Below, piece by piece: positions 3,856 through 29,384 of a stretch of 64,000 bases of DNA (its first letter is position 1; each line of letters starts with the position of its first letter). Where the stretch lies: NCBI RefSeq assembly GCF_001679665.1, contig NZ_CP013244.1, positions 1,558,980-1,622,979 on the forward strand, given 5' to 3'. Origin of the DNA: Candidatus Viadribacter manganicus (GTDB lineage: Bacteria > Pseudomonadota > Alphaproteobacteria > Caulobacterales > Aquidulcibacteraceae). The translations under genes were made by a program, and so were the position numbers. The notes below the pieces were generated by a model. The model ran no database searches and was not told the origin of the DNA. It was given only the letters and a program-made list of their open reading frames with translations.

Positions 3856-3864
3856 GGCTCTCCT

Positions 3865-6568: not shown

Positions 6569-6586
6569 GGCGGACAGAGAGGGATT
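6569..6586. repeat. Left attachment repeat of the island
   Basis: GGCGGACAGAGAGGGATT is identical over 18 bp to the 3' end of tRNA-Ser at 29487-29504. The match stops at the next base. No tRNA surrounds this copy, so it is the displaced 3' end expected after site-specific integration. Confidence 0.82.
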
Positions 6587-7254: not shown

Positions 7255-8502
7255 TCAGAAATTTGCCCAAACGCGCTCATGCGCTTCAGCGACTAACTTT
7301 CTCGTGGCCGCACTTACCCCTACACTCTTTGCTATCGCGTTCCATCCGGATACCGCGGATCGAACATCGTCAATAGCGGCCGCCGTCTGCTTATCAGAGA
7401 GCCCATGGCGGCTCGCGAGCGCCTCCACATGACCACGCGTGGGCGTGCGCCCTTCACCTTCCACATCAAGATAATGCTCGCCGCCTGGACCGGCGGCATA
7501 AGTTAGATCGTATGCAGGCGACAAGCGCCAATCGCCCCTATCATCCATTAAGAACGCATGCTGTCGCGTGTGGTCGTCACGATTGTGCGCAAGAACATTA
7601 AACAGCATGCGCCGCACGATCATCGCTACATCTTCGGCGCGGCGCGTCATAGCGCGCGTGGCGCGCAGCAACGTGTCGTAGCTTGAAGGGGTCTGAGGTG
7701 GCGACTCAATAGCACCCGACAATGAGAGCATGTGCAGCCGTACGCCTGGCTCAGGGCGATCAAAACGACGGGCCGCGAAGTACCCTGGCCTTTTCGCGGA
7801 TTCAATAAGCCGGTGGTCCGGCACGTCGATATGCGCCGAACGCGCCATAGACGCGTAGGCATATTCAAGCGGGCCGATGTCGACCGGGTCTTCTGGCGCG
7901 CGAAATTTCACGATCCACGCTGAATGCCCTGGTGCAATCTCGCCTGAACCGACCGAGATGTGGCCTTCATCGTCAAAACCAACATGTACCTTCGGCCGTG
8001 CGCCACCAGAGCCGCCAGCGAGCCTCGCAAGTGTTTCAGCGAGTTCGCCGTCATCACCACTCAGAATCGCCGCGGCGTCATCGGCCAGCGCATCGAGATC
8101 CAGCGTTTCGACCTCGTCGCTAGGCGCAGTCGCCGGTTCGAACACCAGCGCGCCTCTTCCAGCGTCGCCCACCAACGCAAGCTGTTCAACCGCAGTCAGT
8201 GAAGCAATGTCCACACCGAGCTTAGCGAGGCGCTTGCGCATAACCAAATGCCCCCAACCTTCGGGCAATGCGTCAGCCAAAAAACCGTGCAGCCCATTAA
8301 AGCTGTGTGTGCGCGCAGCGTGCAAACCCGGCGCCGGCGGATAATTAAGTCCCGCAAGATTAAGCGCGCTGGCTATGAGTTCCGGCGACCACTCAAGTTG
8401 TGCAACACCTTTATCCATTGCCAAACGTGCAGCGCGCAAACGCGGGCGCGATGAACTGAACTCCAGCGAAACTCGCAACGGAGCGCCAAGGGGCAATTTC
8501 AT
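7255..8502 (-). CDS. hipA: HipA-family serine/threonine kinase toxin
   Basis: The 415-residue protein should phosphorylate a cellular target (glutamyl-tRNA synthetase in classical HipA), halting growth unless held by HipB. Seen here: an N-terminal HipA domain (SFNGLHGFLADALPEGWG), GGSGGARPKV near residue 170 as the nucleotide-binding loop, FNVLAHNRDDHTRQHAFL near 305 as the catalytic loop (N-x-D-D-H), and LSPAYDLT as the metal-binding Asp. Length is normal for the family. The ATG overlaps the hipB stop by 4 bp, giving translational coupling. It sits at the left end of the island, where it could stabilise the element. Confidence 0.9.
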   Translation of the reverse strand: MKLPLGAPLRVSLEFSSSRPRLRAARLAMDKGVAQLEWSPELIASALNLAGLNYPPAPGLHAARTHSFNGLHGFLADALPEGWGHLVMRKRLAKLGVDIASLTAVEQLALVGDAGRGALVFEPATAPSDEVETLDLDALADDAAAILSGDDGELAETLARLAGGSGGARPKVHVGFDDEGHISVGSGEIAPGHSAWIVKFRAPEDPVDIGPLEYAYASMARSAHIDVPDHRLIESAKRPGYFAARRFDRPEPGVRLHMLSLSGAIESPPQTPSSYDTLLRATRAMTRRAEDVAMIVRRMLFNVLAHNRDDHTRQHAFLMDDRGDWRLSPAYDLTYAAGPGGEHYLDVEGEGRTPTRGHVEALASRHGLSDKQTAAAIDDVRSAVSGWNAIAKSVGVSAATRKLVAEAHERVWANF

Positions 8503-8873: not shown

Positions 8874-8942
8874 CAAAATCCACCCCAGCGAGGCGGCGCG
8901 CTCTACATGATCACTGGCTCCTCAACAGCCACCCTAGCCCGG

Positions 8943-9650: not shown

Positions 9651-9672
9651 AATGGGTCCCGTTGGACCTATT
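9651..9672. promoter_or_regulatory. lux-box-like palindrome upstream of fecR
   Basis: AATGGGTCC-CGTT-GGACCTATT is a 22-bp inverted repeat with one mismatched arm position. It matches the palindrome upstream of luxI (21091-21112) at 19 of 22 positions, and the next three bases (GAC) are also the same. It ends 32 bp before the fecR start. Size and symmetry fit LuxR-type operators, and a luxR gene lies in the same island. Binding is inferred. Confidence 0.7.
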
Positions 9673-9704
9673 GACAATGACAAAGATTGTGATCCGCCCT
9701 ATCA

Positions 9705-10823
9705 ATGAGCATTAGAGCCGAACGTGCGGTTCGCGACTGGCGCTCGGCCCCGACCTGCACCCCTAGATCATCTCAACAGAGTTCAGCTAGTTTCACCACC
9801 GCGGCCTCGCCGAGATCGCATGCTGGAGCCACAGCCCTGAAAGAAAGCGCTAAACCGACGCGCGCCGAGCGAGAAGCCAGCGCCTGGGTTGTGCTCTTTG
9901 ACGGCGCTGACTGGGACCAAAACAATGTCCGACGATTTCATGCCTGGCTCGCTCGCAGAGCCGATCATCGACCAGCGTTCGAAGCCGTTGCAAAAACTTG
10001 GAACAAGCTCGACCTCCTCGCGACGCTTGAGAGCCGCGGCGTGCTCGAGGGCAGCGCCGCAATTGATCACGCGCGGCCCTCGCGCCGCTCCCTGATCGCC
10101 GGCGCAGGCATCGGCGCTGCCGCAGCTTTAGGCGCAGGCGCCTATTTGATTTGGGCTAAACCGCCCTCACCCGCCTATCAAACCGGAACCGGTGAACAAC
10201 GCGACATCACGCTCGGTGACGGCACAACCATTGCGATGAATGCACAAACCCAATTTAGCGTGCGCTCGAGCGCCCGCTTGCAAGAGGTTTCACTGAGCGC
10301 TGGCGAGGCTCTCTTCACCATCGCCGCCAACACCGCCCGGCGCTTTATCATCCGCACCCGATTTGGAGAGCTGGACGCCGATAATTCCAAGGTCCTGGTC
10401 AAAGTCTTAGCGCAAGGCGCCCGGATCACGCTGATTTCGGGAACAGTGCGAGCCACACAACGCCAATTCCTCTCCACCGGCATGGAAATCCAAGCGGGCC
10501 CCGAGACAGAACTCGTGATCAGTCCCCAAACCCTGTCCTTGGCCGCAATCAGCGCGCCGGTGGTCGAACGCCGTACGCTCTGGCGCGAAGGCATGCTGGC
10601 GTTCGACGGCGAGCCTCTTGAAGAAGCGACCAACGATGTGGCGCGTCAAAACGGGGTCAGCTTCCGGTTTGCAGATCCAGCTTTGGCCGGCCTTCGCGTC
10701 GGCGGACTTGTCCGCGCCAACGATGTAGAGGCATTTTTGGTATTGCTCCGCGACAATCTCGCCATTCAGTCTGAACGCCAAGAAGACGGCGCCATCCTCT
10801 TAAGTTCGACTGCAACCTTCTAA
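9705..10823 (+). CDS. fecR: FecR-family transmembrane sensor
   Basis: The predicted 372-residue inner-membrane protein would relay the state of the neighbouring TonB receptor across the periplasm to a sigma factor. Order of parts: a cytoplasmic DUF4880-like domain (AEREASAWVVLFDGADWDQNNVRRFHAWLA), one membrane helix near residues 130-147 (GAGIGAAAALGAGAYLIWA), and the FecR domain (GEQRDITLGDGTTIAMNAQTQF). The first 50 residues look unstructured and no strong ribosome binding site precedes 9705, so the true start may be downstream. No ECF sigma gene is seen in the window. It is transcribed toward the receptor and isopeptidase and lies behind the lux-box-like site. Confidence 0.85.
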   Translation: MSIRAERAVRDWRSAPTCTPRSSQQSSASFTTAASPRSHAGATALKESAKPTRAEREASAWVVLFDGADWDQNNVRRFHAWLARRADHRPAFEAVAKTWNKLDLLATLESRGVLEGSAAIDHARPSRRSLIAGAGIGAAAALGAGAYLIWAKPPSPAYQTGTGEQRDITLGDGTTIAMNAQTQFSVRSSARLQEVSLSAGEALFTIAANTARRFIIRTRFGELDADNSKVLVKVLAQGARITLISGTVRATQRQFLSTGMEIQAGPETELVISPQTLSLAAISAPVVERRTLWREGMLAFDGEPLEEATNDVARQNGVSFRFADPALAGLRVGGLVRANDVEAFLVLLRDNLAIQSERQEDGAILLSSTATF

Positions 10824-10962
10824 AGACCAGCTCCGCGCCGGCCAGAGCTTCCGGTCAGGTAAAATTATTTCGCCATAGCGCGCCTTCGCCTGCGTAATCC
10901 AAGGCGCTCATTTGTCTCTCTCTTCAGAAGCCGCCGATCCGAGCGGTGCTGGGGAGTGAAAC

Positions 10963-13923
10963 ATGGGAAAAGAACTGGCGCGTACGCGCCGTCACGGCCT
11001 GCGCTCAATTTTGGCATTGGCGCTGAGCTCGGTCTCACATCTTGCATTGAGTGCGCCAGCGCACGCGCAGATCGCCCCGAGTGAAGCTGCCGCCACAATT
11101 GAATACGATATCCCTGCTCAAGACTTGAGCGCTGCCCTGATCGCGTTTGCGGCGCGCTCAGATATGCAAATTCTGTTCTCACAAGCTGACGTTGAAGGCC
11201 TGAGATCCAGCTCGGTGCGCGGCCGCTTCACCCCCAGGAATGCGCTTGCCGAAATTGTTGCTGGATCTGGCCTTCGCGCGCGCGCCGATGTCGATGGCGT
11301 CATTCGCATCGAGCGCGCGCGCCCCCAGTCCACCGCCAACGGCGATGACGCGTCCGTCGCCGACGACCTCGTCGTTACCGGCACGCGCATTCGCGGCGAA
11401 GGCCCGATTGGCGCAAACGTTATAGTTCTCGACCGCGCCGCGATCGAAGACACCGGACGCACCAGCGTTCAGGACGTCGTGCAAACGCTGCCGCAAAATT
11501 TTGCCGGCAGTCAAAACGAAGCGACCCAAGAAGGAACACTCAACGCGCGATCGAACTTCACTTTTGGCTCAACTGTCGATCTGCGCGGGTTGGGCGCCGA
11601 CGCCACGCTGACGCTCGTCAATGGCCGACGCCTCGCGCCAGCCGGCGCCGGCAATTTCATAGATATCTCCACAATTCCCTTGAGCGCTGTCGAACGGATC
11701 GAAGTTCTCGCCGACGGCGCCTCGGCCACGTATGGCGCAGACGCTGTCGGCGGTGTCGTCAATATCATTTTGAACGGCAATTTCGAGGGCGCCGAAAGCG
11801 CATTGAGATATGGCGGCGCGACACAGGGCGGGGCCGAAGATTTCGGCGCTTCCCACCTCACCGGCTTTAACTGGTCCAGCGGACATCTGACCGCCGGCTA
11901 TGATTATCGCCGCCGCGGCGAAGTTGATATTTTGGAACGCGACTTCACTGCGACTGCGGACTTTCGGCCTTGGGGCGGCTCCAATTTCGAACGCATAAAC
12001 TCCAACCCCGGCAACATCACACGCATTGGTGCAACGACTGTAAGTCTTGCCATTCCACGCGGCCAAGATGGCACCTCGCTATCTGAAGCAAATCTCATCA
12101 GTGGCGCGCCGAATTTTGGAAATATCAACCGCGACGCTTGGTTGCTGCCGCGCCAGGAGAGCCACGCAATCTTTCTGAGTGCAGCGCAGGAGTTTTCACC
12201 TCACTTTGAAATGTTCGCCGACCTCGTCGCTGCAGACCGGCGTTCCTATTCTGAACGCGAGAACCTCGGGGCGAATTTGATCGTGCCTGAATCGAACGCC
12301 TATCGCCAACTCAACAACCTCTTCCTCGGCCAAGGCGATCTCACGATCGCCTATCACTTTGGCGCCGATCTCGGCCCAGTCATTACGACTACCAAAACGC
12401 AAGCCTTCTCGCTTATCACTGGCGGCGCGTTCAATTTCGACAATGATTGGCGCCTAGAAGGGTCCATCTCCCTCGCACGCAGCGAAGAAACCGTCGACAC
12501 GCTCAACTATTTTGACTCGCCGACGATTGCGCCATTCCTCGCCAGCAACAATTTGGCCACCGCCTTCAATCCATTTGCCGACGGTTCCAACACCAATGCC
12601 GCGGTGCTCGAAGCTATCGCGTTCGATCAAACCTCGTTCTCGCGTGGGATTACCACGAACTTCACCCTGAAAGCGGACGGCCCGCTTTGGCGCATCTGGG
12701 GCGGCCTCATCCGCGCCGCCGTCGGCGCTGAGCGCCGCGAAGAAACCTTCCGCTTCAGCCGCTTTGAAATTCATAATTCCGGTACGACCGTCAGCCCGAC
12801 AGCTGCGCCAGGCGAGCGCGTCGTTGAAGCGCTATTTGCCGAACTTAGCCTGCCGCTCATCAGTGAAGACAATCACGTCCCGTTGGTTCGCAATTTCGAT
12901 CTCTCGCTCTCTGCCCGCCGAGAAAGCGCAAGTGATTATGGCGACGAGATCACCCCGCGCGTGGGCATGCTCTGGGAACTCACCCAAGGCCTCGCCCTGC
13001 GCGCATCGTGGGGGCGCTCCTTCAAGGGACCACTCTTCCAGGACATGTTGGGCGGCGTCGGGCTTTCATATTTGACCGCGACGGCAGCCCAAGATCCCCT
13101 CGCCGATAACGGCTCGACCGGCGTTCTCGCCATTGCCGGCTCCAATCGTGATCTTAAACCAGAGCGCGCGGAATCTTGGACGGCAGGTATTGAGGTGCAA
13201 CCTTCGTGGGCGCCGGGACTGCGCGCCAGCGCCACCTATTTCAACATTGCATTCGAAGACCGCGTCGCCGCACCCGGTTCACCCTTTGTCATCCTCGCCA
13301 ACCCGGCAGGGTTTGAGAGCATCGTCTTTCGCGATCCAGACCTTGCGTTCATCAATTCGTATCTCGCCTTGGGCACACCGACCGGCACGCTTCCAGCAGA
13401 TGGCATCGAAGTCATCATTGATCGCCGGCGCGTCAATCTCTCCAGTCAAAACGTGACCGGACTCGATCTGTCTGCTGTCTACGCACACGATCTACCTTTG
13501 GGTGAACTCACCTGGAGCGGCGCTGTCAGCATCTTATTCGATCACGAGCTCACGATCACCCCTGGCGGGGTCCCCGTTCGGGCGCTCAATACACTAAACG
13601 GCCCGGTCGATCTTCGTGGCCGCGTCGGCGCCAATTGGCGCAACGGGATCTGGAACATCGGACTGAGCGCAAATTATCTCGACAATTACACCGACAATGT
13701 CTCCATCCCGGCGCGTCCCATCGACGAGTTCATCACCTATGACATGCGCGCTGCACTCGATTGGCGCGGTGAAGACGGCGGCGCCCAGATCGCATTGAGC
13801 GTGCAAAACCTCTTGGACGAAGATCCGCCGTTCGTAAATAATTCCACCGGCTACGCCTATGACGCCTCTAACGCGTCCCCCTTGGGCCGAGTCATCACGC
13901 TCGAACTGCGCCAACGTTGGTAA
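10963..13923 (+). CDS. TonB-dependent receptor with STN domain, probable lasso-peptide importer
   Basis: This 986-residue outer-membrane transporter has a signal peptide (cleavage near HAQIAPSE), an N-terminal STN signalling domain (IPAQDLSAALIAFAARSDMQ), a TonB box (DDLVVTGTR), a plug (LRGLGADATLTLVNGRR, GASATYGADAVGGVVNI) and a beta-barrel ending in an aromatic residue (LELRQRW). An STN domain fits signalling to the FecR-like neighbour. In characterised isopeptidase-type lasso clusters the adjacent receptor is thought to import the lasso peptide; that role is inferred here from position. The ATG has GGGGAG upstream, and the isopeptidase gene starts 4 bp after the stop. Confidence 0.92.
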   Translation: MGKELARTRRHGLRSILALALSSVSHLALSAPAHAQIAPSEAAATIEYDIPAQDLSAALIAFAARSDMQILFSQADVEGLRSSSVRGRFTPRNALAEIVAGSGLRARADVDGVIRIERARPQSTANGDDASVADDLVVTGTRIRGEGPIGANVIVLDRAAIEDTGRTSVQDVVQTLPQNFAGSQNEATQEGTLNARSNFTFGSTVDLRGLGADATLTLVNGRRLAPAGAGNFIDISTIPLSAVERIEVLADGASATYGADAVGGVVNIILNGNFEGAESALRYGGATQGGAEDFGASHLTGFNWSSGHLTAGYDYRRRGEVDILERDFTATADFRPWGGSNFERINSNPGNITRIGATTVSLAIPRGQDGTSLSEANLISGAPNFGNINRDAWLLPRQESHAIFLSAAQEFSPHFEMFADLVAADRRSYSERENLGANLIVPESNAYRQLNNLFLGQGDLTIAYHFGADLGPVITTTKTQAFSLITGGAFNFDNDWRLEGSISLARSEETVDTLNYFDSPTIAPFLASNNLATAFNPFADGSNTNAAVLEAIAFDQTSFSRGITTNFTLKADGPLWRIWGGLIRAAVGAERREETFRFSRFEIHNSGTTVSPTAAPGERVVEALFAELSLPLISEDNHVPLVRNFDLSLSARRESASDYGDEITPRVGMLWELTQGLALRASWGRSFKGPLFQDMLGGVGLSYLTATAAQDPLADNGSTGVLAIAGSNRDLKPERAESWTAGIEVQPSWAPGLRASATYFNIAFEDRVAAPGSPFVILANPAGFESIVFRDPDLAFINSYLALGTPTGTLPADGIEVIIDRRRVNLSSQNVTGLDLSAVYAHDLPLGELTWSGAVSILFDHELTITPGGVPVRALNTLNGPVDLRGRVGANWRNGIWNIGLSANYLDNYTDNVSIPARPIDEFITYDMRAALDWRGEDGGAQIALSVQNLLDEDPPFVNNSTGYAYDASNASPLGRVITLELRQRW

Positions 13924-13927
13924 GACG

Positions 13928-16009
13928 ATGAAGCGCCTCATCGCCTTAGGCGCCGCGTTGGGCGCCATTTTGTTGTCGCCGCCGGCAGATGCCGAGCGGC
14001 GCACAACCCGCGCTCATGAAGCGCGCTCTGAAGATCTTTTCGATCTCCACGAAATCGGCGGCCTCATTGAGGCAAACGTCGTGGCCGCGCCTAATGGCGA
14101 AGAACTGGCGTTCTTTGAACGCCGCATCGATCTTGGTCAAAACCAATACCAGCACCTCCTTGTCGTCGTCGACATAAGCACGGGCGCCCATCGCATCATC
14201 GCAGAAGCTGGCGATATCATTCTGGCATCGAGTCGCGGGCGGCGCTCCGGCGCACCTTTTGATCGGCGCCCGATCTGGTCGGCCGATAGCCAATGGGTCT
14301 ATTATACGGCGCTGACCGCACGAGGCGCCGAGATTTGGCGCGTGCGCAGAGACGGCGCCGAGAACAGACAAATTTTCGCACCACCGGGCGATGTTCGCCG
14401 CTTTACACTCAGCGCAGATGGCGATGCGCTCATCGTAGAGACGCAAACCTCACGCCAAGCGATAGAAGCGCAGCGTGACCGCGACGAACGAGACGGCTTC
14501 AGGGTCGATGAAGCCTTCGCGCCGCTTTACGCCTTGCGTCCTCTCCCCGATGAAGACAGTGGCGGTGAAATCAGCCGGCTCTCGCTCATCGACGGACATG
14601 TGCGCCCCGCAAGCGCCGATGAGCGCGCCCGCCTCAACACGCCGGCAGACCTTCACGTGCGCCAACGAGACCGACAATCACGCGCTTACGCACCGGCGCT
14701 TGGCGTCTTTTCTGAGAGCGGCGAGGGCGAATTGATCTGCCTAGCCGCGGCATGTAGCGGCGCACTCAAAGAGAGCTGGCGTCTTGCTTCTGGAAACAGC
14801 GAACGCATCGTCTTTCGACGCTTGGAAGGACACGCCGGATTTTGGACGGCGCTCTACGAATGGCGTCCCGACAGGACCGCAAGCGAGCGCGAGATGAACG
14901 CTAGTGAAGCGACATCGGCGGGGGACAATATCAGACGCATTCGCCGAAGCGCCGATCGGCTGGAGGGGTGCATCCTCGTCGAGAACGGGCTCGCTTGTCT
15001 GCAGGACTTCGCCACCCAACCTCGTCGGCTTGTCCGCATCGATATCGAAACCGGCGCCGAGCGCGTCCTCTATGATCCCAATCCAGCATGGAGAGCAGTT
15101 AGAACGCCGCGGATCGAGCGCTTGGACTATACCGACTCTGAGGGCAATCAATCGTTCGCGCAGCTCATCTACCCTTTGAACTATCGCCGAGGCACAACCT
15201 ATCCGGCGGTCATTGTCCAATATCGCGCCCGCGGTTTTCTCAACGCTGGCACCGGCGCGGATACGCCGATTTTTCCACTCTCGGCACGCGGCTATTTTGT
15301 CCTCAATGTCGACCGGCCCGAATTCGACATCCGCGGGGCTCGGCTGAGCTATCATGAACTCGCGCGCGAAACCGAACTCGACGACAGCGAAAACACAATC
15401 AAACGCCAAGCGATCCTATGGTTCCTTTCGGAGCTCCAGCGCCGACATCTCGTTGATCAAAGTCGAATCGCGATCACAGGCATGAGCGATGGCGCCGAAA
15501 CCTTGTTTGACATGCTGCTCGACGGACCAAGCTTCCGCGCCGCGGTCGCCAGCTCTCCACCGGGCGATCCCATCGCCTATGTGCTGCAATCGCGCCAGTT
15601 TCGCCAATCGCGCCGCAACGACATCGGCTTTAGTCCGCCGTGGGATCAAACCGGCGCGTTCTATGCATGGTGGCGCGAAAATAGTCCGACGCTGCGCAAT
15701 GCCCCCATCAACACAGCCTTGATGTTGAACTTGTCGGAGACCGAGGCGCTGCGCGCCTTCCCCCTCCTCGCGCACCAGGAAGGCTCTTCAGCGCCAATAG
15801 AGAGCTACCTCTATCCCGGCGCCTACCACATCAAATGGCGTCCCGCGCAGATTTGGGCGACGAGAGAACGCACCCTCGCATGGCTCGACTTTTGGTTACG
15901 CGACGTCTCGCCAAGCGATAACGACACACGCAGTCGCTGGCAGGCGATGCGTCAGGCTTGGGGCGCCTCCGACGACGCGGACGAGCCATCCGGCGGTTCC
16001 GGCCGATGA
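13928..16009 (+). CDS. S9-family lasso-peptide isopeptidase (AtxE-like)
   Basis: This 693-residue exported protein has a signal peptide (MKRLIALGAALGAILLSPPADA), a beta-propeller region and a C-terminal alpha/beta-hydrolase domain of the prolyl oligopeptidase family. Ser520 in GMSDGA is the likely nucleophile and His634 in YPGAYHIKWRP the likely His. AtxE-type enzymes of this family cut the isopeptide bond of lasso peptides and linearise them. The assignment rests on fold plus position beside a cyclase, a B protein and two precursors. The start lies 4 bp after the receptor stop. The 3' end overlaps the convergent cyclase gene by 58 bp. Confidence 0.88.
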   Translation: MKRLIALGAALGAILLSPPADAERRTTRAHEARSEDLFDLHEIGGLIEANVVAAPNGEELAFFERRIDLGQNQYQHLLVVVDISTGAHRIIAEAGDIILASSRGRRSGAPFDRRPIWSADSQWVYYTALTARGAEIWRVRRDGAENRQIFAPPGDVRRFTLSADGDALIVETQTSRQAIEAQRDRDERDGFRVDEAFAPLYALRPLPDEDSGGEISRLSLIDGHVRPASADERARLNTPADLHVRQRDRQSRAYAPALGVFSESGEGELICLAAACSGALKESWRLASGNSERIVFRRLEGHAGFWTALYEWRPDRTASEREMNASEATSAGDNIRRIRRSADRLEGCILVENGLACLQDFATQPRRLVRIDIETGAERVLYDPNPAWRAVRTPRIERLDYTDSEGNQSFAQLIYPLNYRRGTTYPAVIVQYRARGFLNAGTGADTPIFPLSARGYFVLNVDRPEFDIRGARLSYHELARETELDDSENTIKRQAILWFLSELQRRHLVDQSRIAITGMSDGAETLFDMLLDGPSFRAAVASSPPGDPIAYVLQSRQFRQSRRNDIGFSPPWDQTGAFYAWWRENSPTLRNAPINTALMLNLSETEALRAFPLLAHQEGSSAPIESYLYPGAYHIKWRPAQIWATRERTLAWLDFWLRDVSPSDNDTRSRWQAMRQAWGASDDADEPSGGSGR

Positions 16010-17823
16010 CCAGGTTCGACGAAGCGTCGCTGCAATGCGTAAAATCTGCGTAGCCAGATTTCTGCAAGCAAGGCGCTGGATAAAAATCCGCTTCGTGATC
16101 CTTCTGACATCACATCCCGAGAGAGCGCCTCTCGCAACTCCACGCCATCTATGATCTCTGCGCGCTCGAGTTCGCCCCCGATCAGCATCTCACGCATGAA
16201 TGGCAATTGTCGCGCCAATGCGGCAACATGATATCGCGTCGTGTCACCCTTACCGGTTCGCGCCAACACCTCGCCCGGAATGACGTCTTGAAACGCGGCG
16301 CGCGCAAGAGCGCGTTCACGCCCGCCCCAAGTCATCACATAAGGTGGCACACGTAGACAAAACTCAATAATCGGTTGCGAAGCCAAGATCGGATGGGTGG
16401 CAAACTGCGCATTCAGACCATTGGGCTGATGATAATATTGTAGATCCATGATGTGCGCGATGCGCATCGCGCGCGCCGGAGACGCCGCCGCCCGCACCCG
16501 CGCCCAGGCATGCTCGTTCAAAAGCGTCTTTATCGCGTCAGGCTCGCAACCCCGAGCTCGCGAGCCAAATGGACCAGACGCCAACGGCTGACGTAGCAAG
16601 CCATATTTCAACACTGCGCCAAACACGTCCCAAATTGGACGCCGCGCCAGTCGCGCAGTGTCGACCATAATCCGCTGCAGCTCGGCCAAATCACATCCGT
16701 CGCACCAAGCATCAGCGGCAATAAGCGGAGTGCGCAAGCGATGAAAAACCTGATCGCCGCCCTGGCCCGACGTGACCAAAGGCGAGTTCATCTCTGCTGC
16801 TATGGCGCGCCCCATCGTCGGATCGGTAAAGCTCATCGCGGCGCGCGATGGTTTGGCGCTGAAATATGCATCTAGCAACCGCTCATAGGAGATGTGCGCG
16901 GGCGACATCGCGACTTCGATCAATCGCGTGTCCGAAGCGTCCGCCGCTGCCCGTGCGTAGCGTCGTTCATCACCTTCTGCCACATCGGCTGGAAATGCAT
17001 TGACGGCGAGAAGCTCGCCTGTCGTCGCCCGCTTCAGCGCGCCAAGCACAATGCTCGAATCCAAGCCGCCAGAAAGACGGTGGACGATCTCAGAGGAGGT
17101 TTGCGACCATGATCGCGCAACCGCGAAGACAGTTTCGCGTAACCCGCCGGCGGCGGCATCAAACTCCTCCGAGGTAAAGCTACGGGCGTTGGCAATGGGC
17201 GCCCAAACCACGCATTTCGCTACGGCGCCGGGCGCACGACCAAGGCAGAGCTCCTCGCCAGCCATAAGTTCACGAACGTCTTTGATGGCTGTGCGCGGCG
17301 TCACCAGCCGAGATTGCGCGCAGAAGGCAGAGAGAAATTCAAAATCCGGCTGCGCTTCGTCCGCCAGCGCTAGAAAATCCTCCGCATGCGAGAACACCGC
17401 CATGCTCTTGCCCAAGCGACCGTAATAGATCGGATGGGCGCCGGCGGCCTCGCGGACAATAACCAATTCGTCCTGGCCGGTGTCATGCAGCACCGCCAAA
17501 TAGGCTCCCCAGTAGTCGCGCGACAATTCTGCGCCGCGTCCACTCTCCACCAAACGCGATGTCTGCGATGGAGTAATATCGCCAAGCGGCGCAGCGCCCA
17601 GCCGCTGACGCTGAAACAACGAACCAAATATCGCCCCTTGTGCGCCGTGCAAAAGCATTGGCGCGCGATCCGAACCCGCAAGGGCGTAATGACCCAAGAC
17701 GCCGCGTCGATCTAGAAACTTGGTCCAGGCACGCTCGCCTGCAATCTCTGCCCAAAGGGCCCGGCGACGACGCTCCTCATCCCAATCACACGGCGTCCAT
17801 CGGAGGATAAATACCCGGGCCAT
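15952..17823 (-). CDS. Lasso-peptide macrolactam synthetase (C protein)
   Basis: The 623-residue protein resembles class B asparagine synthetase, with a glutaminase-like N-terminal domain lacking the catalytic Cys2 (it starts MARVFIL) and an ATP-pyrophosphatase loop LSGGLDSS at 250-257. In lasso pathways this enzyme adenylates the side chain of residue 8 or 9 and joins it to the N-terminal amine of Gly1. It is called a cyclase, not AsnB, because its ATG directly follows the stop codon of a lasso B protein, and two lasso precursors lie upstream. SGQGGDQVF near residue 360 is the second family motif. Confidence 0.93.
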   Translation of the reverse strand: MARVFILRWTPCDWDEERRRRALWAEIAGERAWTKFLDRRGVLGHYALAGSDRAPMLLHGAQGAIFGSLFQRQRLGAAPLGDITPSQTSRLVESGRGAELSRDYWGAYLAVLHDTGQDELVIVREAAGAHPIYYGRLGKSMAVFSHAEDFLALADEAQPDFEFLSAFCAQSRLVTPRTAIKDVRELMAGEELCLGRAPGAVAKCVVWAPIANARSFTSEEFDAAAGGLRETVFAVARSWSQTSSEIVHRLSGGLDSSIVLGALKRATTGELLAVNAFPADVAEGDERRYARAAADASDTRLIEVAMSPAHISYERLLDAYFSAKPSRAAMSFTDPTMGRAIAAEMNSPLVTSGQGGDQVFHRLRTPLIAADAWCDGCDLAELQRIMVDTARLARRPIWDVFGAVLKYGLLRQPLASGPFGSRARGCEPDAIKTLLNEHAWARVRAAASPARAMRIAHIMDLQYYHQPNGLNAQFATHPILASQPIIEFCLRVPPYVMTWGGRERALARAAFQDVIPGEVLARTGKGDTTRYHVAALARQLPFMREMLIGGELERAEIIDGVELREALSRDVMSEGSRSGFLSSALLAEIWLRRFYALQRRFVEPGHRPEPPDGSSASSEAPQA

Positions 17824-18459
17824 TCAAAGGCGCACGATCTCGGAAAACGAAGCACAATCTTCCTCTCCCGCATCAAGGATGCGGCCATCGACCACCACCC
17901 AGCAATGGGCGGCAAACGGCATGGCGCGCACGCCAAAGACCAAACTCGCCCTGACCCGCTTGCGCAAAAGAAACCGGATAAGCGTCAGTGCATTGAAGAG
18001 ACAGACATAGCGCTTTGGGATCCAAACGCGCGCCCGCTCGAAGACACTGTGTGCCCCAATAGCCGATACATTCAATGATGCGCTGGCGTCTAAGGCGCGC
18101 TTTTGAACTTCGATCCAATCAAACGCAAAAGCCAAGCGCCGATCTTTTATGATCCAATGGGCCCAACAAGCCGCTTCGATTACAAGAACCATATCGGGCA
18201 GCCGGGCCAAAGCACGCTCCCCTATTGATCTTGCCTTTTCGTTTGGTGCGAGCCGACTTATCGCGTGCGGCGAAGCGCCATCTCTCACACCGCGTTCAGC
18301 AATATTTGCGCGAACGTGGCCAAGGTCAGTATCTGCGGGCATGGCGAAATAGCGATCTTGAACGGCGTCCAAGAACACAATCCAATCACCGGCGATGCAT
18401 GCATAAACACGCCGGGGCAAGAAGAGCCTTATAAGCTCGATGCGTGATGCATCGTCCAT
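17824..18459 (-). CDS. Lasso-peptide leader peptidase (fused B1-B2 protein)
   Basis: The 211-residue protein combines an N-terminal recognition-element-like region (GDWIVFLDAVQDRYFAM, residues 24-40) with a C-terminal transglutaminase-like cysteine protease domain. The catalytic set is visible: Cys153 in RYVCLFNAL, His185 in FAAHCWVVV, and an Asp in DGRILDA. In this family it binds the precursor leader and removes it so that the core can be cyclised. The ATG has GGGAGGG four bases upstream. It starts 28 bp after precursor A2, and its stop abuts the cyclase start, so the processing genes form a tight unit. Confidence 0.93.
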   Translation of the reverse strand: MDDASRIELIRLFLPRRVYACIAGDWIVFLDAVQDRYFAMPADTDLGHVRANIAERGVRDGASPHAISRLAPNEKARSIGERALARLPDMVLVIEAACWAHWIIKDRRLAFAFDWIEVQKRALDASASLNVSAIGAHSVFERARVWIPKRYVCLFNALTLIRFLLRKRVRASLVFGVRAMPFAAHCWVVVDGRILDAGEEDCASFSEIVRL

Positions 18460-18487
18460 GCGACCCTCCCTGCCCCGACGCGGATCA

Positions 18488-18607
18488 TTAGTCGCGATAG
18501 TCTTCGCCCATCAGCTCCTCAAAGGCGGGCGCCCAAGGGATGCCAAGAGTGAGCACAGAAGCCTCGCCCAGATCGATCACATGATCGGTTTGCAAATGCT
18601 CTTGCAT
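18488..18607 (-). CDS. Lasso-peptide precursor A2 (39 residues)
   Basis: Translation gives a 21-residue leader ending in ASVLTL and an 18-residue core, GIPWAPAFEELMGEDYRD. The leader has Thr at position -2, the hallmark recognised by lasso maturation enzymes. The core starts with Gly1 and has Glu9, so a nine-residue Gly1-Glu9 ring is predicted, with loop and tail from residue 10. Pro3, Trp4 and Pro6 lie in the ring; Tyr16 and Arg17 are candidate steric plugs. It shares Gly1-Ile2, Ala7, Glu9, Leu11 and the tail GEDYRD with precursor A1. The gene is the nearest to the B gene. No classical ribosome binding site is seen. Confidence 0.9.
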   Translation of the reverse strand: MQEHLQTDHVIDLGEASVLTLGIPWAPAFEELMGEDYRD

Positions 18608-18643
18608 GACACTGTCTTTCAGCTTGAGTGGATCTTTCAAAGA

Positions 18644-18671
18644 ATGTGGCGCGGGCAGCGCCGCGCCACAT
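18644..18671 (-). terminator. Strong hairpin between precursors A1 and A2
   Basis: ATGTGGCGCGG at 644-654 pairs perfectly with CCGCGCCACAT at 661-671 around the loop GCAGCG: 11 bp, mostly GC. On the minus-strand transcript it is followed by TCTTTG, a weak U-run. It could partly terminate transcription after A1 or protect its 3' end, setting different amounts of A1 and of A2-B-C. Confidence 0.6.
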
Positions 18672-18683
18672 CAGCCGTTGGCG

Positions 18684-18797
18684 TCAGTCGCGATAATCCT
18701 CGCCATTGAGATCTTCGACCGCGTCGGTCTCTTTGATGCCCAACGTGAGTTCACTGGCCGCGCCCAGTTCGACGAGATCAATTGCTTGTTCAAGCAT
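18684..18797 (-). CDS. Lasso-peptide precursor A1 (37 residues)
   Basis: The start has GGAGG six bases upstream. The product is a 19-residue leader ending in ASELTL and an 18-residue core, GIKETDAVEDLNGEDYRD. Thr at leader position -2, core Gly1 and Glu9 follow the lasso pattern, with a Gly1-Glu9 ring predicted. The tail LNGEDYRD parallels LMGEDYRD of A2, whereas ring positions 3-8 differ except Ala7, so the two products should share topology and differ on the ring face. The core is very acidic. It lies 104 bp after the GntR gene and 76 bp before A2. Confidence 0.9.
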   Translation of the reverse strand: MLEQAIDLVELGAASELTLGIKETDAVEDLNGEDYRD

Positions 18798-18802
18798 GTT
18801 TT

Positions 18803-18880
18803 CCTCCATCGGGCCTTATCGCCCGATGTCATCTTCCCGCCGAAAACACCGATCACCGATCTGATAATCGTGAAGATCAG
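18803..18880 (-). promoter_or_regulatory. Leader and candidate operator region of the precursors
   Basis: An 8-bp perfect stem (CATCGGGC at 807-814, GCCCGATG at 821-828, loop CTTATC) ends on the A1 ribosome binding site GGAGG. Further upstream lie two tandem heptamers ACCGATC (18848-18861) and a CTGAT/ATCAG inverted repeat (18861-18865, 18876-18880). These could be sites for the adjacent GntR protein, or a 5' structure controlling A1 translation. No convincing -35/-10 pair was found. Confidence 0.4.
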
Positions 18881-18901
18881 TTTGCCGATCGTGCGTTTGG
18901 C

Positions 18902-19522
18902 TCAACCAGGCGCGCCATTGTTGGGTAGCGCACGCAAGACAACATGCTGGCGGAGCAGACGCACGCTTTGGACGCGGCGTCGAGTATGGGCCTTGAGCAG
19001 AACCGACGTGCGTTTCGACCGGTGCGCAAGCGCGTCAATCAAAGTCTGAAGCTCACCCTGCACATCGCCCAGAACCTCAATCTCGGCTTTGCGAGCAAGG
19101 TAAAGTCGCTCGTCCGCATTAGCGCCCGCGCGGCGCAATTCAGGATTGGCGCTGGCCTCAATAAGTCGCATCACCGCAAACATCGATTCCGGATAGGGCA
19201 ATATCCTCGTCGCGCGCTGCAGCTCTGCGCCGTCTGCTGAATTGGGCAAAGCCAGAGCGAACAAAACGCCACGCCACTCGTAAAGATAAGCGAGCTCAGC
19301 TTCTGACCATAAACTGACTTCATAGCCAGATCGCTGGCCAGCCTTGACGAGGCCCTCCCAGACAAGAATAGCCAGCGCTTGGCGGACCGGCATTGAACTT
19401 AAAGCGAGATCTTCGGCCAGCGCCTCCACATCGATGTGAGAGCGCACCGGCAATCGCCCATCGCGTATGCGCGCCTTGATCTCCTCAAAGGCCCGGCGCG
19501 CTGCTGTGCGTTCAACCGGCAT
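18902..19522 (-). CDS. GntR-family transcriptional regulator
   Basis: The 206-residue protein has an N-terminal winged helix (IDVEALAEDLALSSMPVRQALAILVWEGLVKAGQRSGYEV, residues about 30-70). The mostly helical C-terminal domain resembles the FCD class, although metal ligands are not obvious. The ATG begins one base after the stop of the dioxygenase gene, so the two are co-translated. Its position just ahead of the precursor genes suggests local control of the lasso operon. Effector unknown; the mature peptide or a pathway metabolite is possible. Confidence 0.8.
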   Translation of the reverse strand: MPVERTAARRAFEEIKARIRDGRLPVRSHIDVEALAEDLALSSMPVRQALAILVWEGLVKAGQRSGYEVSLWSEAELAYLYEWRGVLFALALPNSADGAELQRATRILPYPESMFAVMRLIEASANPELRRAGANADERLYLARKAEIEVLGDVQGELQTLIDALAHRSKRTSVLLKAHTRRRVQSVRLLRQHVVLRALPNNGAPG

Positions 19523-19523
19523 G

Positions 19524-20393
19524 TTAGAGCTTGCCGGCGTCTACGAGGGCCTTGAGCTCAGCTTCTATCGCCGGCGGCAAGGCATCGCGATGCGCAGCGC
19601 AGCTTTGACCATTTTGCAACACGGCAATCGGATCTTGCCCTTCCCAATTGCCGAGATTGGGTCTGTGCCACTGATAGCCGATAAGCCGCTGCAAGGGCTC
19701 AGGAAAGGCGCGCGCAATGTTGGGCGGATAAGCCAAAAATTGTTCTTCGTAGGTGCGCAGCCAGCCAGCGCAATACCCGACGACAATTCCTGTGCGATCA
19801 ACCAGCGAGCAATTGGCGCCGCCGCTATGCATAAGAGTACCCAGATAGACGAGCGCTGAGCCTGCCGTCATCTGCGCTTGAACGGCGCGACCAGGATCAA
19901 TGTCACGGGCTACGGCCTGGCGATGGCTACCCGGCCAAAGTCGCGTGGCGCCGTTCGCGACCGTAAAGTCGCTGACCGCCCACATCACGTTCAGCGACCA
20001 GATTTGTCCCTTGGAGTCGGCGGGCCACATCTCCTGATCTCGGTGCGGCGCCTGCGCCCTCTGGCCAGGATGGATACGAATGGCTTGGGTAAGATTTAGC
20101 CTTATGCAGTCGCACGCCGGCGCCAAAGCAGCTTCAGCAAGCGCCAACAAACGTGGATGAAGCGCCAATCGCTGCACCGTCGGCGACTTTGACAAAAGGC
20201 CGTTGACGCGCGTTGTCGACCAGCCATGAAAATCACCCTCACAACGGGGCGTGCGCTGCAGCCAAGGCTCCAACTCATCTTTTAGCGCCGCAAGCTCGTC
20301 GACCGCCATCGCGTCTTCGAGAATGACAAACCCATCACGCTCCAGCGCAGCCAAATCAGGGCAAAGCGCAAACTCGTGCACAGACTGAGACAT
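19524..20393 (-). CDS. Phytanoyl-CoA dioxygenase (PhyH)-like Fe(II)/2-oxoglutarate enzyme
   Basis: The 289-residue protein shows the 2-His-1-Asp facial triad: His117 and Asp119 in APHRDQEMW, and a distal His in GTLMHSGGANCS. A following DRTGIVVGY supplies the Arg that would hold 2-oxoglutarate. Such enzymes hydroxylate small molecules or peptides. The gene lies between luxI and gntR: luxI ends 15 bp before the chosen ATG, and an upstream TTG would overlap luxI. luxI-phyH neighbours are known in sphingomonads, so it may act on the acyl-homoserine lactone; hydroxylation of the lasso peptide is an alternative. Substrate not determined. Confidence 0.82.
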   Translation of the reverse strand: MSQSVHEFALCPDLAALERDGFVILEDAMAVDELAALKDELEPWLQRTPRCEGDFHGWSTTRVNGLLSKSPTVQRLALHPRLLALAEAALAPACDCIRLNLTQAIRIHPGQRAQAPHRDQEMWPADSKGQIWSLNVMWAVSDFTVANGATRLWPGSHRQAVARDIDPGRAVQAQMTAGSALVYLGTLMHSGGANCSLVDRTGIVVGYCAGWLRTYEEQFLAYPPNIARAFPEPLQRLIGYQWHRPNLGNWEGQDPIAVLQNGQSCAAHRDALPPAIEAELKALVDAGKL

Positions 20394-20407
20394 TGTCTTC
20401 GCTTCCC

Positions 20408-21037
20408 TCAAGCTGCTTTGGCCAAGTCGGCAGGTACAAAACGGATTAACGGCGCGCCGATGCCGTAGCTTTGACGGACACGCCGCAGACCCTCGCTATT
20501 GATGTCGGCAACGAAGGCCTGAATCTTGTGACGGCCGCGACCGCGACCAGGACCCAAGGCGCGCGCATTCCAACCCGCGCGCAACGCCAAAGGTGCGAGC
20601 GCCGCATCGGTGACGTAAGTCACTTGCTCGATACCAAAAATAAAGGCGGTCTCGATGATCCCTGCGATCATGCGTCCGAGAAGTGCGCGGCGCGGCGCGC
20701 CGATGGGCGTCGCCGGCGCCGGACAAAAGCGCGTAGCTTCCCAAACATGAGAGCCACGCGGCGCGGGCGTGTCGCACAGATCTGAAAAATGCTCGCTCAA
20801 AAGATGAGGAACATGCGTCGGCAACAGCCGCACCGACGACGTTATCGATGCCGTCGCCGGATCCGTCTCAATCAAGTAGATCGCTTCAGCGCTGTCGTAA
20901 CAATCAATCTCAAGTCCAGCGCTATGGTCCAAACGCCACTTCAATTTGTCGATGAACACCGCTTTGCGCTGACGGTGCATCTCAGTCAGCAGGTGATGAA
21001 ACCGGCGCCGATTTTCTGCGGAAACAATGTAGATCAT
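20408..21037 (-). CDS. luxI: LuxI-family acyl-homoserine-lactone synthase
   Basis: The 209-residue protein makes an acyl-homoserine lactone from S-adenosylmethionine and an acyl donor. Conserved LuxI features are visible: RKAVFIDKLKW (Arg, Phe, Trp), the acidic residues in GLEIDCYDSAEAIYL, SVRLLPT with the conserved Arg, and HVWEATRFC with Glu and Arg. Length is normal. The ATG has GGAG five bases upstream. It lies downstream of luxR on the same strand and 53 bp after the 22-bp palindrome, and leads a tandem run to the lasso cyclase with gaps of at most about 100 bp. Confidence 0.92.
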   Translation of the reverse strand: MIYIVSAENRRRFHHLLTEMHRQRKAVFIDKLKWRLDHSAGLEIDCYDSAEAIYLIETDPATASITSSVRLLPTHVPHLLSEHFSDLCDTPAPRGSHVWEATRFCPAPATPIGAPRRALLGRMIAGIIETAFIFGIEQVTYVTDAALAPLALRAGWNARALGPGRGRGRHKIQAFVADINSEGLRRVRQSYGIGAPLIRFVPADLAKAA

Positions 21038-21090
21038 GTGCGCTCCAACCTCTGGGGGTCAGAACGATGCGGGGTTTTTTAGATCGCCGA

Positions 21091-21112
21091 AATAGGTCCC
21101 ACTGGACCTATT
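21091..21112. promoter_or_regulatory. lux box upstream of luxI
   Basis: AATAGGTCC-CACT-GGACCTATT is a perfect 9-bp inverted repeat with a 4-bp centre. It lies 53 bp upstream of the luxI start and recurs nearly unchanged upstream of fecR (9651-9672). A terminator for luxR was considered, but the second copy without a T-run argues for a protein-binding site. Confidence 0.78.
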
Positions 21113-21127
21113 GACTCCGAAAAAGAC

Positions 21128-21868
21128 TCAGCCATCGGACAAATCGTCGACCATGATTTGCCCATCGAAAACAGCCCGCATCACCGCTTGGACACGACCG
21201 GAAACGCCGTAGCGTCTCTTCGCGCGTTCGATTGCGTTGTGGGCTGTCCGCGCACTCAAACCCAAAACCTCGCCAATCACCCAATCGCTTTTGCCGCGCC
21301 CGACCAGCGCTAAACATTCGCGCTCGCGCCGCGCCAGAACAACAGGCTCTCTGATCGCGTTTGGATTTAAACACCGATGCATCGCGCCATGCCCAAAGAC
21401 CACGATCATCAGGGTCTCAGCCAAATATAAGGGGTCGACACCATCAGGACCGGCAACGAGCGAGCAAGAAGCCGGCACGATATCAGGCGAGCGCAACGGA
21501 ATTGTCAGCCCAGCCGACAAGCCAAAGGACGCGCCCTCGGCGAGCACGCGCTTTTGCTGGCGATTGAGGCGCATATGGCCAAGCGCGTCCGCCCAATTAA
21601 ATGGCGCGGGCATCACCCGCGCCGCCAAGAGCACCGGATCGATCAAGGCAAAATTGCCTGACGAATATTGCTCCAGCCAAGGGGTGGGATAATTGACGAT
21701 GCTGACGCCGCCCGGCCGCGGTCGCAGCGGATCAACGTGCGACGCGCAAGCGATATAGCGATAGCCGAGCCCCTCTAACGTCGACACGAACCGCTTTTCA
21801 ATTAAAGCCGCGTCGGTCTGTCTTTCGCAAAACTCGAGGAAGTCCAGCGCGACTTTGCTCTTTGGCAT
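21128..21868 (-). CDS. luxR: LuxR-family quorum-sensing regulator
   Basis: The 246-residue protein has an N-terminal autoinducer-binding domain, with the signature PTPWLEQYSSGNFALIDPVLL (Trp, Tyr, Asp, Pro) and FNWADAL. A C-terminal LuxR-type helix-turn-helix follows (LARRERECLALVGRGKSDWVIGEVLGLSARTAHNAIERAKRRYGV). It should bind the signal made by LuxI and act at the two palindromes. The ATG and its ribosome binding site lie inside a hairpin (21864-21888). It is upstream of luxI in the same direction, 90 bp apart. Confidence 0.92.
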   Translation of the reverse strand: MPKSKVALDFLEFCERQTDAALIEKRFVSTLEGLGYRYIACASHVDPLRPRPGGVSIVNYPTPWLEQYSSGNFALIDPVLLAARVMPAPFNWADALGHMRLNRQQKRVLAEGASFGLSAGLTIPLRSPDIVPASCSLVAGPDGVDPLYLAETLMIVVFGHGAMHRCLNPNAIREPVVLARRERECLALVGRGKSDWVIGEVLGLSARTAHNAIERAKRRYGVSGRVQAVMRAVFDGQIMVDDLSDG

Positions 21869-22176: not shown

Positions 22177-23166
22177 ATGTCGTCATCATCACCCAATCAC
22201 GCACCGCGCGACCTCGGCGCAGAAATCACTTCCAAGATACTGGCCGCGCTCGACCAAGGCGTCATGCCTTGGCGCAAGCCCTGGGATGGGGCCAGAACCA
22301 GCCCCGCGCTGCCGCGCCGTGCGACCGGCGAATGCTATCGGGGTGTCAACACAATCATCCTTTGGCATGCTGCGGCCACGCAAGGTTACACATCGCCGTA
22401 CTGGATGAGCTTTAAACAAGCGGTCAAACTCGGCGCGCGCGTGCGTAAAGGTGAACACGGCGAACGGATTGTCTATTATGGCGCAGCCGAGCGTACACGC
22501 ACCACAAGCGACGGCCACGAATGCAAAGAAGCCTTTCGCTTCTTGAAGTCCTACGTCGCCTTCAACGCAGACCAGATTGATGGTTTGCCAAATCTCTTTC
22601 ACCCTGCGCCCTGTGCGGCGGCGGCCCTTCCTCTGAACGCGCACGAATGCTGGTTCAACGGCCTTGGCATCACGCGGATCTTATCGCGCGACATCGCCTG
22701 CTACGTACCAAGCCGCGATGTCATCGCTATGCCACCGCTTGGCGCCTTCGACAGTGCAGAAGCCTATGCTGCGACGCTGAACCATGAGGCTGTGCACGCG
22801 ACAGCTGCGCCCCACCGGGTCGGGCGCCAATTGCCGCCCCGCGCCGACATCGAAAAGCTCGCCGCCGAAGAGCTCGTTGCCGAGATCGGCGCGGCTATCC
22901 TCGGCGCACATCTCAATCTGCCGCCGGCTCACATCTTCGATCACGCCGCCTATATTGAGCATTGGATGAACTTGTTGCGATCCGACAAACGCGCCTTCTT
23001 GCACGCCGCCGCCCAGGCGCAAGCAGCCGTCGATTGGCTGCTGATGAAGAGCCCTCCAGTTGGCCGCGTAAGTGACGCGCAATGCGAGCACGATACAGGC
23101 GGCGGCGAAATCAGTTTCGCCTCCTGTCTCCAGCACCTCAAGGGATTTTCATATGTCGCAACTTAA
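22177..23166 (+). CDS. ArdC-like anti-restriction protein (zincin)
   Basis: The 329-residue protein has the ArdC N-terminal ssDNA-binding domain (DUF1738: GVMPWRKPWDG, YRGVNTIILW, KGEHGERIVYYG). Its C-terminal zincin-like peptidase domain has NHEAVHATAAPHR (HExxH) and the downstream Glu in AEELVAEIGAAIL. ArdC proteins protect entering plasmid DNA from restriction. It reads toward the Toprim gene with a 14-bp overlap and is divergent from luxR across about 310 bp in which I see no gene. It starts the plasmid-like block of the island. Confidence 0.88.
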   Translation: MSSSSPNHAPRDLGAEITSKILAALDQGVMPWRKPWDGARTSPALPRRATGECYRGVNTIILWHAAATQGYTSPYWMSFKQAVKLGARVRKGEHGERIVYYGAAERTRTTSDGHECKEAFRFLKSYVAFNADQIDGLPNLFHPAPCAAAALPLNAHECWFNGLGITRILSRDIACYVPSRDVIAMPPLGAFDSAEAYAATLNHEAVHATAAPHRVGRQLPPRADIEKLAAEELVAEIGAAILGAHLNLPPAHIFDHAAYIEHWMNLLRSDKRAFLHAAAQAQAAVDWLLMKSPPVGRVSDAQCEHDTGGGEISFASCLQHLKGFSYVAT

Positions 23167-24344: not shown

Positions 24345-24680
24345 ATGAACAGCAACCGTGTCACACTTATTGGAAAGCTTTTGGACGATCCAAAGGTTCG
24401 AACGATCGAACTGCGCGGCGGCTCAAGCGACATCGTCTCGCTCTGGCTTGAAGTTCGCAACGGCGAACGCGTCGATCGCTTCACCGTTGAGATCTACTGC
24501 CCAGCTCAGCAAGAAGCCGCAAAAGCCATGCGTCAAGGCGTTCGAGCGGAAGTCACCGGTGCGCTTCGCCACGATCGCTGGAAAGACAAGACCACTTCAA
24601 AATGGATTGGCAAAGTTTTCGTCGCCATCGACCCCGCCGAAGGCAAGATCAAATCCCTAGGTCTTGCAGACAATCTCTGA
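24345..24680 (+). CDS. ssb: Single-stranded DNA-binding protein, plasmid type
   Basis: The 111-residue protein has the OB-fold pattern of SSB: NRVTLIGKLLDDPKVR, then IVSLWLEVRNGERVDRFTVEIYCPAQQEAAKAMRQGVRAEVTGALRHDRWKD. It lacks the long Gly/Pro-rich acidic tail of chromosomal SSB, ending in IKSLGLADNL. It should coat single-stranded DNA of the element. It follows the Toprim gene after a structured 300-bp gap. Confidence 0.85.
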   Translation: MNSNRVTLIGKLLDDPKVRTIELRGGSSDIVSLWLEVRNGERVDRFTVEIYCPAQQEAAKAMRQGVRAEVTGALRHDRWKDKTTSKWIGKVFVAIDPAEGKIKSLGLADNL

Positions 24681-29325: not shown

Positions 29326-29332
29326 TAGCGCC

Positions 29333-29384
29333 AAGTGGGGTATGTTGGCGCAAAAGTGGGGTATGTGCCCTAAACATACCCCAC
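29333..29384. repeat. Candidate integrase arm sites, right end
   Basis: AAGTGGGGTATGT occurs at 29333-29345 and 29354-29366, 21 bp apart. The inverted copy ACATACCCCAC is at 29374-29384, forming an 11-bp inverted repeat with the second copy. The core TACCCCA is shared with 6642-6665 at the other end of the island. Confidence 0.55.

Follow-up and report, generated by a model that had tools for sequence, protein, structure and literature searches.

Shared lux-type boxes suggest quorum-sensing control of a predicted lasso-peptide locus on a probable mobilisable island of Candidatus Viadribacter manganicus

The window analysed here, a stretch of 64,000 nucleotides (nt) from Candidatus Viadribacter manganicus (contig NZ_CP013244.1, positions 1,558,980 to 1,622,979), holds a predicted lasso-peptide locus composed of two converging arms. 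Judged by its sequence, the locus joins two known modules, an isopeptidase-type lasso cluster and a quorum-sensing system. The production arm is headed by luxR, luxI and phyH, and the receptor arm consists of fecR, a TonB-dependent receptor and a lasso-peptide isopeptidase. LuxR bound to its lactone probably activates both arms together, acting at 22-bp boxes that precede luxI and fecR on a probably mobilisable island.

The genes of the production arm run leftward in the order luxR, luxI, phyH, gntR, A2, A1, B and C, ending at position 15952 where the two arms converge. The original prediction had placed these genes head to tail on one strand, and both their order and strands were confirmed (Table 1). 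It had also taken B, C and the two precursors for a lasso-peptide cluster, which is borne out at the sequence level by domain-family matches and by the marks of both precursors. Lasso precursors are recognised by a threonine at position -2, a glycine at residue 1 and an acidic amino acid at residue 8 or 9. Both A1 and A2 present Thr(-2), Gly1 and Glu9, and they have the ending GEDYRD in common. For A2, an alternative in-frame ATG is possible 12 nt earlier. The predicted macrolactams would have monoisotopic masses of 2076.93 Da for A1 and 2019.90 Da for A2, each rising by 18.01 Da on cleavage by the isopeptidase. The C protein also matches the NCBIfam lasso cyclase models, with scores below their cut-offs (111 vs 300).

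The receptor arm was found on the opposite strand as had been described, with the start of the isopeptidase corrected to about 13928. The isopeptidase aligns to AtxE2 (5txc) over most of its length (E 1.4e-58), and both the nucleophilic serine of the GxSDGA motif and the C-terminal histidine are in place. All three frames of this arm are open and intact.

The boxes before fecR and luxI are 22-bp palindromes that are identical at 19 of 22 positions, in agreement with the earlier description of near-identical palindromes, and appear to represent one operator type at both arms. The centre of the fecR box is 43.5 nt before the fecR ATG, a distance near to which the usual LuxR position lies. Chance palindromes were rejected from two counts. 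Within the window, two box matches were found against 0.00 expected from 100 shuffles, and in the 3.73-Mb genome there were three sites at up to three mismatches against one for the reversed pattern. The third genomic box has the same sequence as the luxI box. It is found at a distance of 247 kb from the fecR box and precedes a truncated traG by 104 nt, measured to the inferred start. On its own contig stretch (L065) this box occupies 9545-9566 and the truncated traG 9093-9470 (G000:C1, about 1321092-1321565); the traG copy retains the first ~115 residues.

Table 1. Features of the island and its lasso-peptide locus, in window positions.
Feature	Position	Strand	Remarks
Left att-like repeat	6569..6586		18-bp exact copy of the tRNA-Ser 3' end
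HipA-like kinase	7255..8502	-	Pfam PF07804, 149.5 bits
Helix-turn-helix (HTH) partner of HipA	8499-8876		HTH_3
Lux-type box before fecR	9651..9672	+	AATGGGTCCCGTTGGACCTATT
fecR (anti-sigma-like)	9705..10823	+	Pfam PF04773
TonB-dependent receptor with STN domain	10963..13923	+	Pfam barrel, plug and STN
Lasso-peptide isopeptidase (AtxE2 family)	13928..16009	+	Peptidase_S9; NF033523, 562.7 bits vs cut-off 400
C, lasso cyclase (Asn-synthase family)	15952..17823	-	PF00733, 76.8 bits, above its own cut-off
B, leader protease	17824..18459	-	PF13471 (Transglut_core3); NF033537, 60.3 bits vs cut-off 33
Precursor A1	18488..18607	-	MQEHLQTDHVIDLGEASVLTL then predicted core GIPWAPAFEELMGEDYRD
Precursor A2	18684..18797	-	MLEQAIDLVELGAASELTL then predicted core GIKETDAVEDLNGEDYRD
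gntR regulator	18902..19522	-	Pfam PF00392
phyH, 2-oxoglutarate/Fe(II) oxygenase-like	19524..20411	-	PF05721
luxI, acyl-homoserine-lactone (AHL) synthase	20408..21037	-	PF00765; alignment; match to solved AHL synthases
Lux-type box before luxI	21091..21112		AATAGGTCCCACTGGACCTATT
luxR	21128..21868	-	PF03472 (Autoind_bind) and PF00196 (GerE); CviR/RhlR/LasR-like
ArdC-like antirestriction protein	22177..23166	+	PF08401, PF18818
Toprim/TraI-helicase-like protein	23072..24040	+
Single-strand-binding protein (SSB)	24345..24680	+	PF00436
Fic-domain protein	25361-26497		on the island
RlxS-like relaxase, short form	26847..28046	+	NF041267
Tyrosine integrase	28081..29334	-	PF00589 and arm domain; just inside the right repeat
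tRNA-Ser(GGA)	29486..29575	-	right 18-bp repeat inside the gene at 29487-29504

The arrangement recurs in the family. Among 60 family genomes, 20 contain an isopeptidase above cut-off, with 32 matches in all. A LuxI is present on the expected side, 4.3-6.1 kb away, at 24 of the 32 isopeptidase loci, the window included. Of the other eight, six have less than 6.2 kb of contig on that side and at two, G034:C7 and a second but partial copy in G033:C3, the sequence is open and has no LuxI. The order luxI-phyH-gntR-precursor-B-C, which the original prediction proposed to look for in other genomes, was indeed recovered: maps of the window and 24 further loci each place luxR, luxI, phyH, gntR, B and C facing an isopeptidase and a TonB receptor, with a precursor-like frame, identified by pattern, separating gntR from B in every locus but L083 (24 of the 25). 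One or more of the genes from luxR to C, the isopeptidase or the TonB gene are broken or split in L073, L075, L081 and L089. Several family genomes have two or three copies of the locus, and the window genome belongs to the same genus as G053. A second luxR-like gene is located upstream of luxR in L073-L076, L079 and L099.

Of the 25 full loci, 24 have a palindrome that begins 71-83 nt ahead of luxI, a weak one in L070 and L088, and no recognisable box was found by luxI in L089, L102 and L103. Four main classes of box sequence occur. Box similarity follows the similarity of the LuxR helix-turn-helix region, with a Mantel r of 0.75 that none of 2000 permutations reached over 32 pairs, three of which have no clear box. 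Most likely, the box serves as the operator of LuxR.

Three of the four classes were used for a census of box sites across all 60 genomes, in which a site found by two patterns, or on both strands of a palindrome, was counted a single time. Of 38 distinct sites, 17 precede luxI, seven precede traG, five stand at the head of a receptor arm (that of the window among them) and nine have other surroundings. The nine comprise two before a 145-aa membrane protein, two near a possible regulator (a small gene facing a relaxase, with a weak HTH match in one case), one near ParA and four with no evident partner. The traG boxes are 76-84 nt before the inferred start in six cases and at the distance given above in the truncated copy of this genome; one of the traG proteins (L150) matches T4SS-DNA_transf at 259.5 bits. 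The fourth class (GGGCC...GGCCC) gave six luxI sites together with scattered weak matches at two to three mismatches. In four genomes (L149, L152, L156 and L162), a membrane protein of 142-145 aa with no family match above cut-off begins no more than about 30 nt from a lux box.

Since the same box classes precede traG in relatives, DNA transfer is likely to be a third output of the regulon. The original prediction, which considered only the release and recapture of peptides, was too narrow in this respect, given the box classes that transfer genes share in relatives. On the island itself, neither of the two window boxes precedes a transfer gene, and the third genomic box lies off the island.

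The signalling side of the receptor arm departs from what had been predicted. A complete circuit from an STN receptor through FecR was expected; no match to FecI was found in the window, where it was looked for beside fecR, and FecR signalling is probably incomplete here for that reason. The genome contains 18 sigma r4_2 matches, and among the 12 that were fetched the best match to the FecI of relatives was 33% over 144 residues (E 9e-13). FecI adjoins FecR in 22 relative loci (14, and 8 from a second survey), FecR itself not being reached by the survey in some others. FecI was also not found by FecR in L092 and L274, or near the fragments of FecR in L073. G010 and G053 have, in this order, a box, a 142-aa membrane protein, a small protein, FecI and FecR. 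FecI follows the box at 1.3 kb in G034:C16 and at 1.1 kb in G048:C462; in both, the box also adjoins a divergent Lrp-like gene. It was considered whether a box adjacent to fecR is conserved in relatives, and this was rejected: the adjacency occurs only on this island, with four more loci having a box at the arm head. A deletion may have placed the receptor arm of the window directly under the quorum switch. With a box immediately in front of fecR and no FecI to be found, the role that normally falls to a FecI switch is probably taken over by quorum control on this island.

Beyond the family, the linkage takes other layouts, seen in Povalibacter uvarum and in two more families of the order. An order sample of 398 genomes was searched for LuxI at E <= 1e-30 and for the isopeptidase at E <= 1e-100, with loci in other families called solely from LuxI hits at that threshold. 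LuxI was present in 40 genomes and the isopeptidase in 36. The 21 isopeptidase matches outside the family come from 16 genomes, and four of these matches have a LuxI no more than about 7 kb away. Three genomes, all of one genus, have luxR-luxI diverging from gntR-A-B-C; phyH follows luxI in two of these, and the contig ends there in the third. In G339 it is the receptor arm that has luxR-luxI-phyH and a weak GntR match at its head, with B-C facing it. A LuxI-profile scan of named genomes (the best 80 of 146 relatives, giving 79 loci) recovered family loci in genomes labelled Hyphomonadaceae bacterium and the like. The gammaproteobacterium Povalibacter uvarum DSM 26723 (L205) has luxR-luxI-phyH, a precursor-like frame, B and C facing an isopeptidase (25% identity, 70 bits) and a TonB receptor. 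Since the layouts differ across separate families, they point to a coupling of the two modules rather than to one frozen arrangement. A metagenome-assembled genome of Steroidobacter (L203) contains luxI-phyH with no lasso genes in the stretch; 78 nt ahead of its luxI stands a palindrome of the type seen in the family.

The locus is part of what is probably a 22.9 kb, integrase-bearing, mobilisable island that carries the lasso-peptide and quorum-sensing genes. Its extent is 6569-29504, with an integrase, 18-bp repeats at tRNA-Ser and an RlxS-like relaxase. The presence of a mobile island had been proposed earlier, and the integrase and flanking repeats agree with it; the island extends to the integrase and tRNA-Ser beyond the span first described. 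An integrase, a tRNA target and flanking repeats, the hallmarks of an integrative element, are thus all present at the level of sequence. The relaxase matches NF041267 at 131 bits (E 4.9e-38) over positions 49-308 of the 654 in the model, below the cut-off of 850, and its match to Pfam Relaxase is weak (E 0.14). Compared with the L157 relaxase it has 32% identity over 231 positions, and the short form is also present in relatives. ArdC matches were found in 16 distinct loci (25 entries, nine of which are second views). No coupling protein, type IV secretion system (T4SS) or virB gene was identified among the island proteins scanned, a set that leaves aside the frame of 217 aa at 24664-25317 and a few short ones. 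Because neither a coupling protein nor a T4SS gene is in this set, the island is best termed mobilisable. The genome contains the truncated traG copy and one distant coupling-protein-like match (28%). The HipA/HTH pair and the Fic-domain protein are possible toxin-antitoxin or maintenance genes. A transposase of the IS110 family is encoded at window positions 2836-3873, a few kb beyond the left repeat.

With these components in mind, a sequence of events may be proposed. LuxI would make an acyl-homoserine lactone that PhyH perhaps modifies. In PhyH, the HxD motif and a distal histidine are invariant across 18 aligned sequences. PhyH accompanies LuxI also where no lasso genes are seen nearby, and its candidacy as a lasso-tailoring enzyme was lowered on this ground. 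LuxR with bound lactone would activate luxI-phyH-gntR, after which read-through, a GntR-controlled promoter, or both would drive A2-A1-B-C. The same complex would likewise activate fecR-tonB-isopeptidase, enabling producers to re-import and linearise their own peptide, a loop that might serve signalling or feeding. Crowding would in this way turn on production and recapture together, and in relatives the regulon would likely time DNA transfer as well. In the window, the gap between gntR and A2 (18798-18901) has counterparts in relatives that are often about 80-115 nt, lengths that are approximate since the script-chosen start codon or the frame is doubtful in several loci; the closest of these share a TCTTCA...TCGGTGATC-like sequence. 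This shared sequence is a possible GntR operator or a promoter in its own right.

A number of observations weigh against joint activation of the two arms by LuxR. The gap of 92-104 nt between gntR and A2 is partly conserved in sequence, and lasso expression may have a control of its own. The ligand-binding half of LuxR correlates with the box almost as well (r 0.71) as the DNA-binding half, so that shared descent explains part of the correlation between box and LuxR. Boxes at the receptor arm are in the minority, with five loci in total, and only on this island is the box directly at fecR; in G053, tonB is about 24 kb from the box, and the receptor-arm box of L281 and L282 also adjoins a divergent Lrp-like gene. 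The lasso and receptor arms of G034:C7 (L092) have no LuxI, PhyH or GntR that could be found beside them; on another contig of the same genome (L091), luxR-luxI-phyH-gntR is present and the stretch shows no lasso genes. Six lasso contigs that lack luxI (L090, L092, L093, L094, L096 and L098) were searched with the box from another, luxI-bearing contig of the same genome, and no box was found at up to six mismatches; L096 and L098 each have one match at seven. Outside the family, 17 of the 21 isopeptidase matches have no nearby LuxI hit at E <= 1e-30. In L284-L286, a palindrome precedes luxI and no second copy was found, while in L287 (G339) a palindrome by luxI was looked for and none was found. 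Povalibacter uvarum likewise has no clear palindrome by luxI, and no GntR match.

Some of these points suit a different explanation, namely that the quorum-sensing genes are transfer regulators of a mobile element and the lasso genes are downstream passenger cargo, controlled mainly by GntR and, in relatives, by FecI/FecR. The seven traG sites preceded by the same box classes would be expected of such an element, as would the relaxase and ArdC nearby and the partly conserved gap before the precursors. LuxI-PhyH also occurs with no lasso genes in the stretch in L102, L103 and L199-L204, several of which are short contigs, and a sphingomonad luxR-luxI-phyH adjoins virB genes according to the text seen of PMC4288048. 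A mere passenger would not be expected to recur with these genes in different gene orders, in other families and in another class, nor to have luxI-phyH-gntR pointing head to tail toward B-C at 25 loci, 24 of them with a precursor-like frame, nor to have its receptor arm headed by a box in five. The passenger explanation is judged rather unlikely on this balance.

The fecR box could instead be a relic, in which a deletion of fecI and the intervening genes fused the box to fecR and left the arm poorly expressed or dead. Both the 22 relative loci in which FecI adjoins fecR, with none found here, and the gene order of G010 and G053 agree with such a deletion; the intact frames of fecR, tonB and the isopeptidase, the match of the box to the luxI box at 19 of 22 bases and its spacing from the ATG, near the usual LuxR position, speak against a relic, which is judged very unlikely. 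It is barely credible that the locus is an ordinary isopeptidase-type cluster that came to lie beside unrelated quorum-sensing genes by chance. The usual architecture, as reviewed in PMC9266682, has no luxI, and "quorum" is absent from the main text of that review; the near-constant distance of LuxI at 24 of 32 loci, the shared boxes, and the conserved linkage with its recurrence in other families and Povalibacter uvarum already disfavour a chance neighbour. Co-activation of both arms by LuxR and its lactone is accordingly the reading retained as probable, and at the level of sequence it agrees with the original prediction.

The locus may be compared with systems already described. An architecture of GntR, precursor, isopeptidase, TonB receptor and a sigma/anti-sigma pair has been described and its function called enigmatic in the portion consulted of PMC9266682. 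Like the isopeptidase-type clusters of astexin, benenodin and sphingopyxin (AtxE2, SpI-IsoP), the present locus has A, B, C, a GntR gene before the precursors, an isopeptidase, a TonB receptor and FecR. Unlike them, its production strand begins with luxR-luxI-phyH, it has lux-type boxes and it lies on an island with an integrase and an RlxS-like relaxase, and of the sigma/anti-sigma pair that usually, though not by definition, accompanies the receptor, FecR is present with no FecI match in the window. The metanodin cluster of the Steroidobacteraceae, the family of Povalibacter, is likewise a lasso cluster with an isopeptidase; in contrast to the present locus, the words homoserine and autoinducer are absent from the main text of the paper (PMC12670498). 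Both luxI-phyH and a luxR-luxR-luxI-phyH arrangement by virB genes ("topology T") are known from sphingomonads, as given in an excerpt of PMC4288048. The present locus resembles that module in having phyH after luxI and in a link to T4SS genes, and differs from it in that gntR and the lasso genes come next, with no virB among the scanned island proteins. TraR/TraI is known to control transfer of the Ti plasmid. In the Mesorhizobium integrative and conjugative element ICEMlSym, transfer is also activated by quorum sensing via TraR/TraI, and RlxS is named there (PMC8627217, in the part available). In common are a LuxI/LuxR pair, a match below cut-off to the RlxS relaxase family and, in relatives, boxes in front of a transfer gene; unlike that of ICEMlSym, the regulon here would include lasso synthesis and recapture, and no coupling protein is among the scanned island proteins.

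A linkage of LuxI with lasso genes is not described in the passages available of PMC11006600, PMC12670498, PMC6771000, PMC9728324 and PMC8776678, and the words quorum and luxr are absent from the main text of PMC13352647. Among the matches listed, no title or opening of an abstract reports it; subscription literature lies outside this scope, and an earlier report is possible. Nor was a proposal found, in the literature passages and listings covered, that connects lasso peptides with horizontal transfer through a box class shared with traG.

The role of isopeptidase-linked lasso peptides has been called enigmatic (PMC9266682, in the text consulted), and the seemingly shared lactone-responsive operator offers a direct handle on their function. 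The box class shared with traG would tie the lasso peptide to horizontal transfer as well. It is conceivable, though quite unlikely, that the peptide is a population marker of the mobile element: at quorum, carriers would release it, only they would have the receptor and isopeptidase needed to import and destroy it, and the same LuxR switch would open DNA transfer. If so, peptide exchange would distinguish carriers from non-carriers, or burden the latter, just as the element moves, and these would be the first lasso peptides tied to both lactone quorum sensing and conjugation, as far as the literature searched shows.

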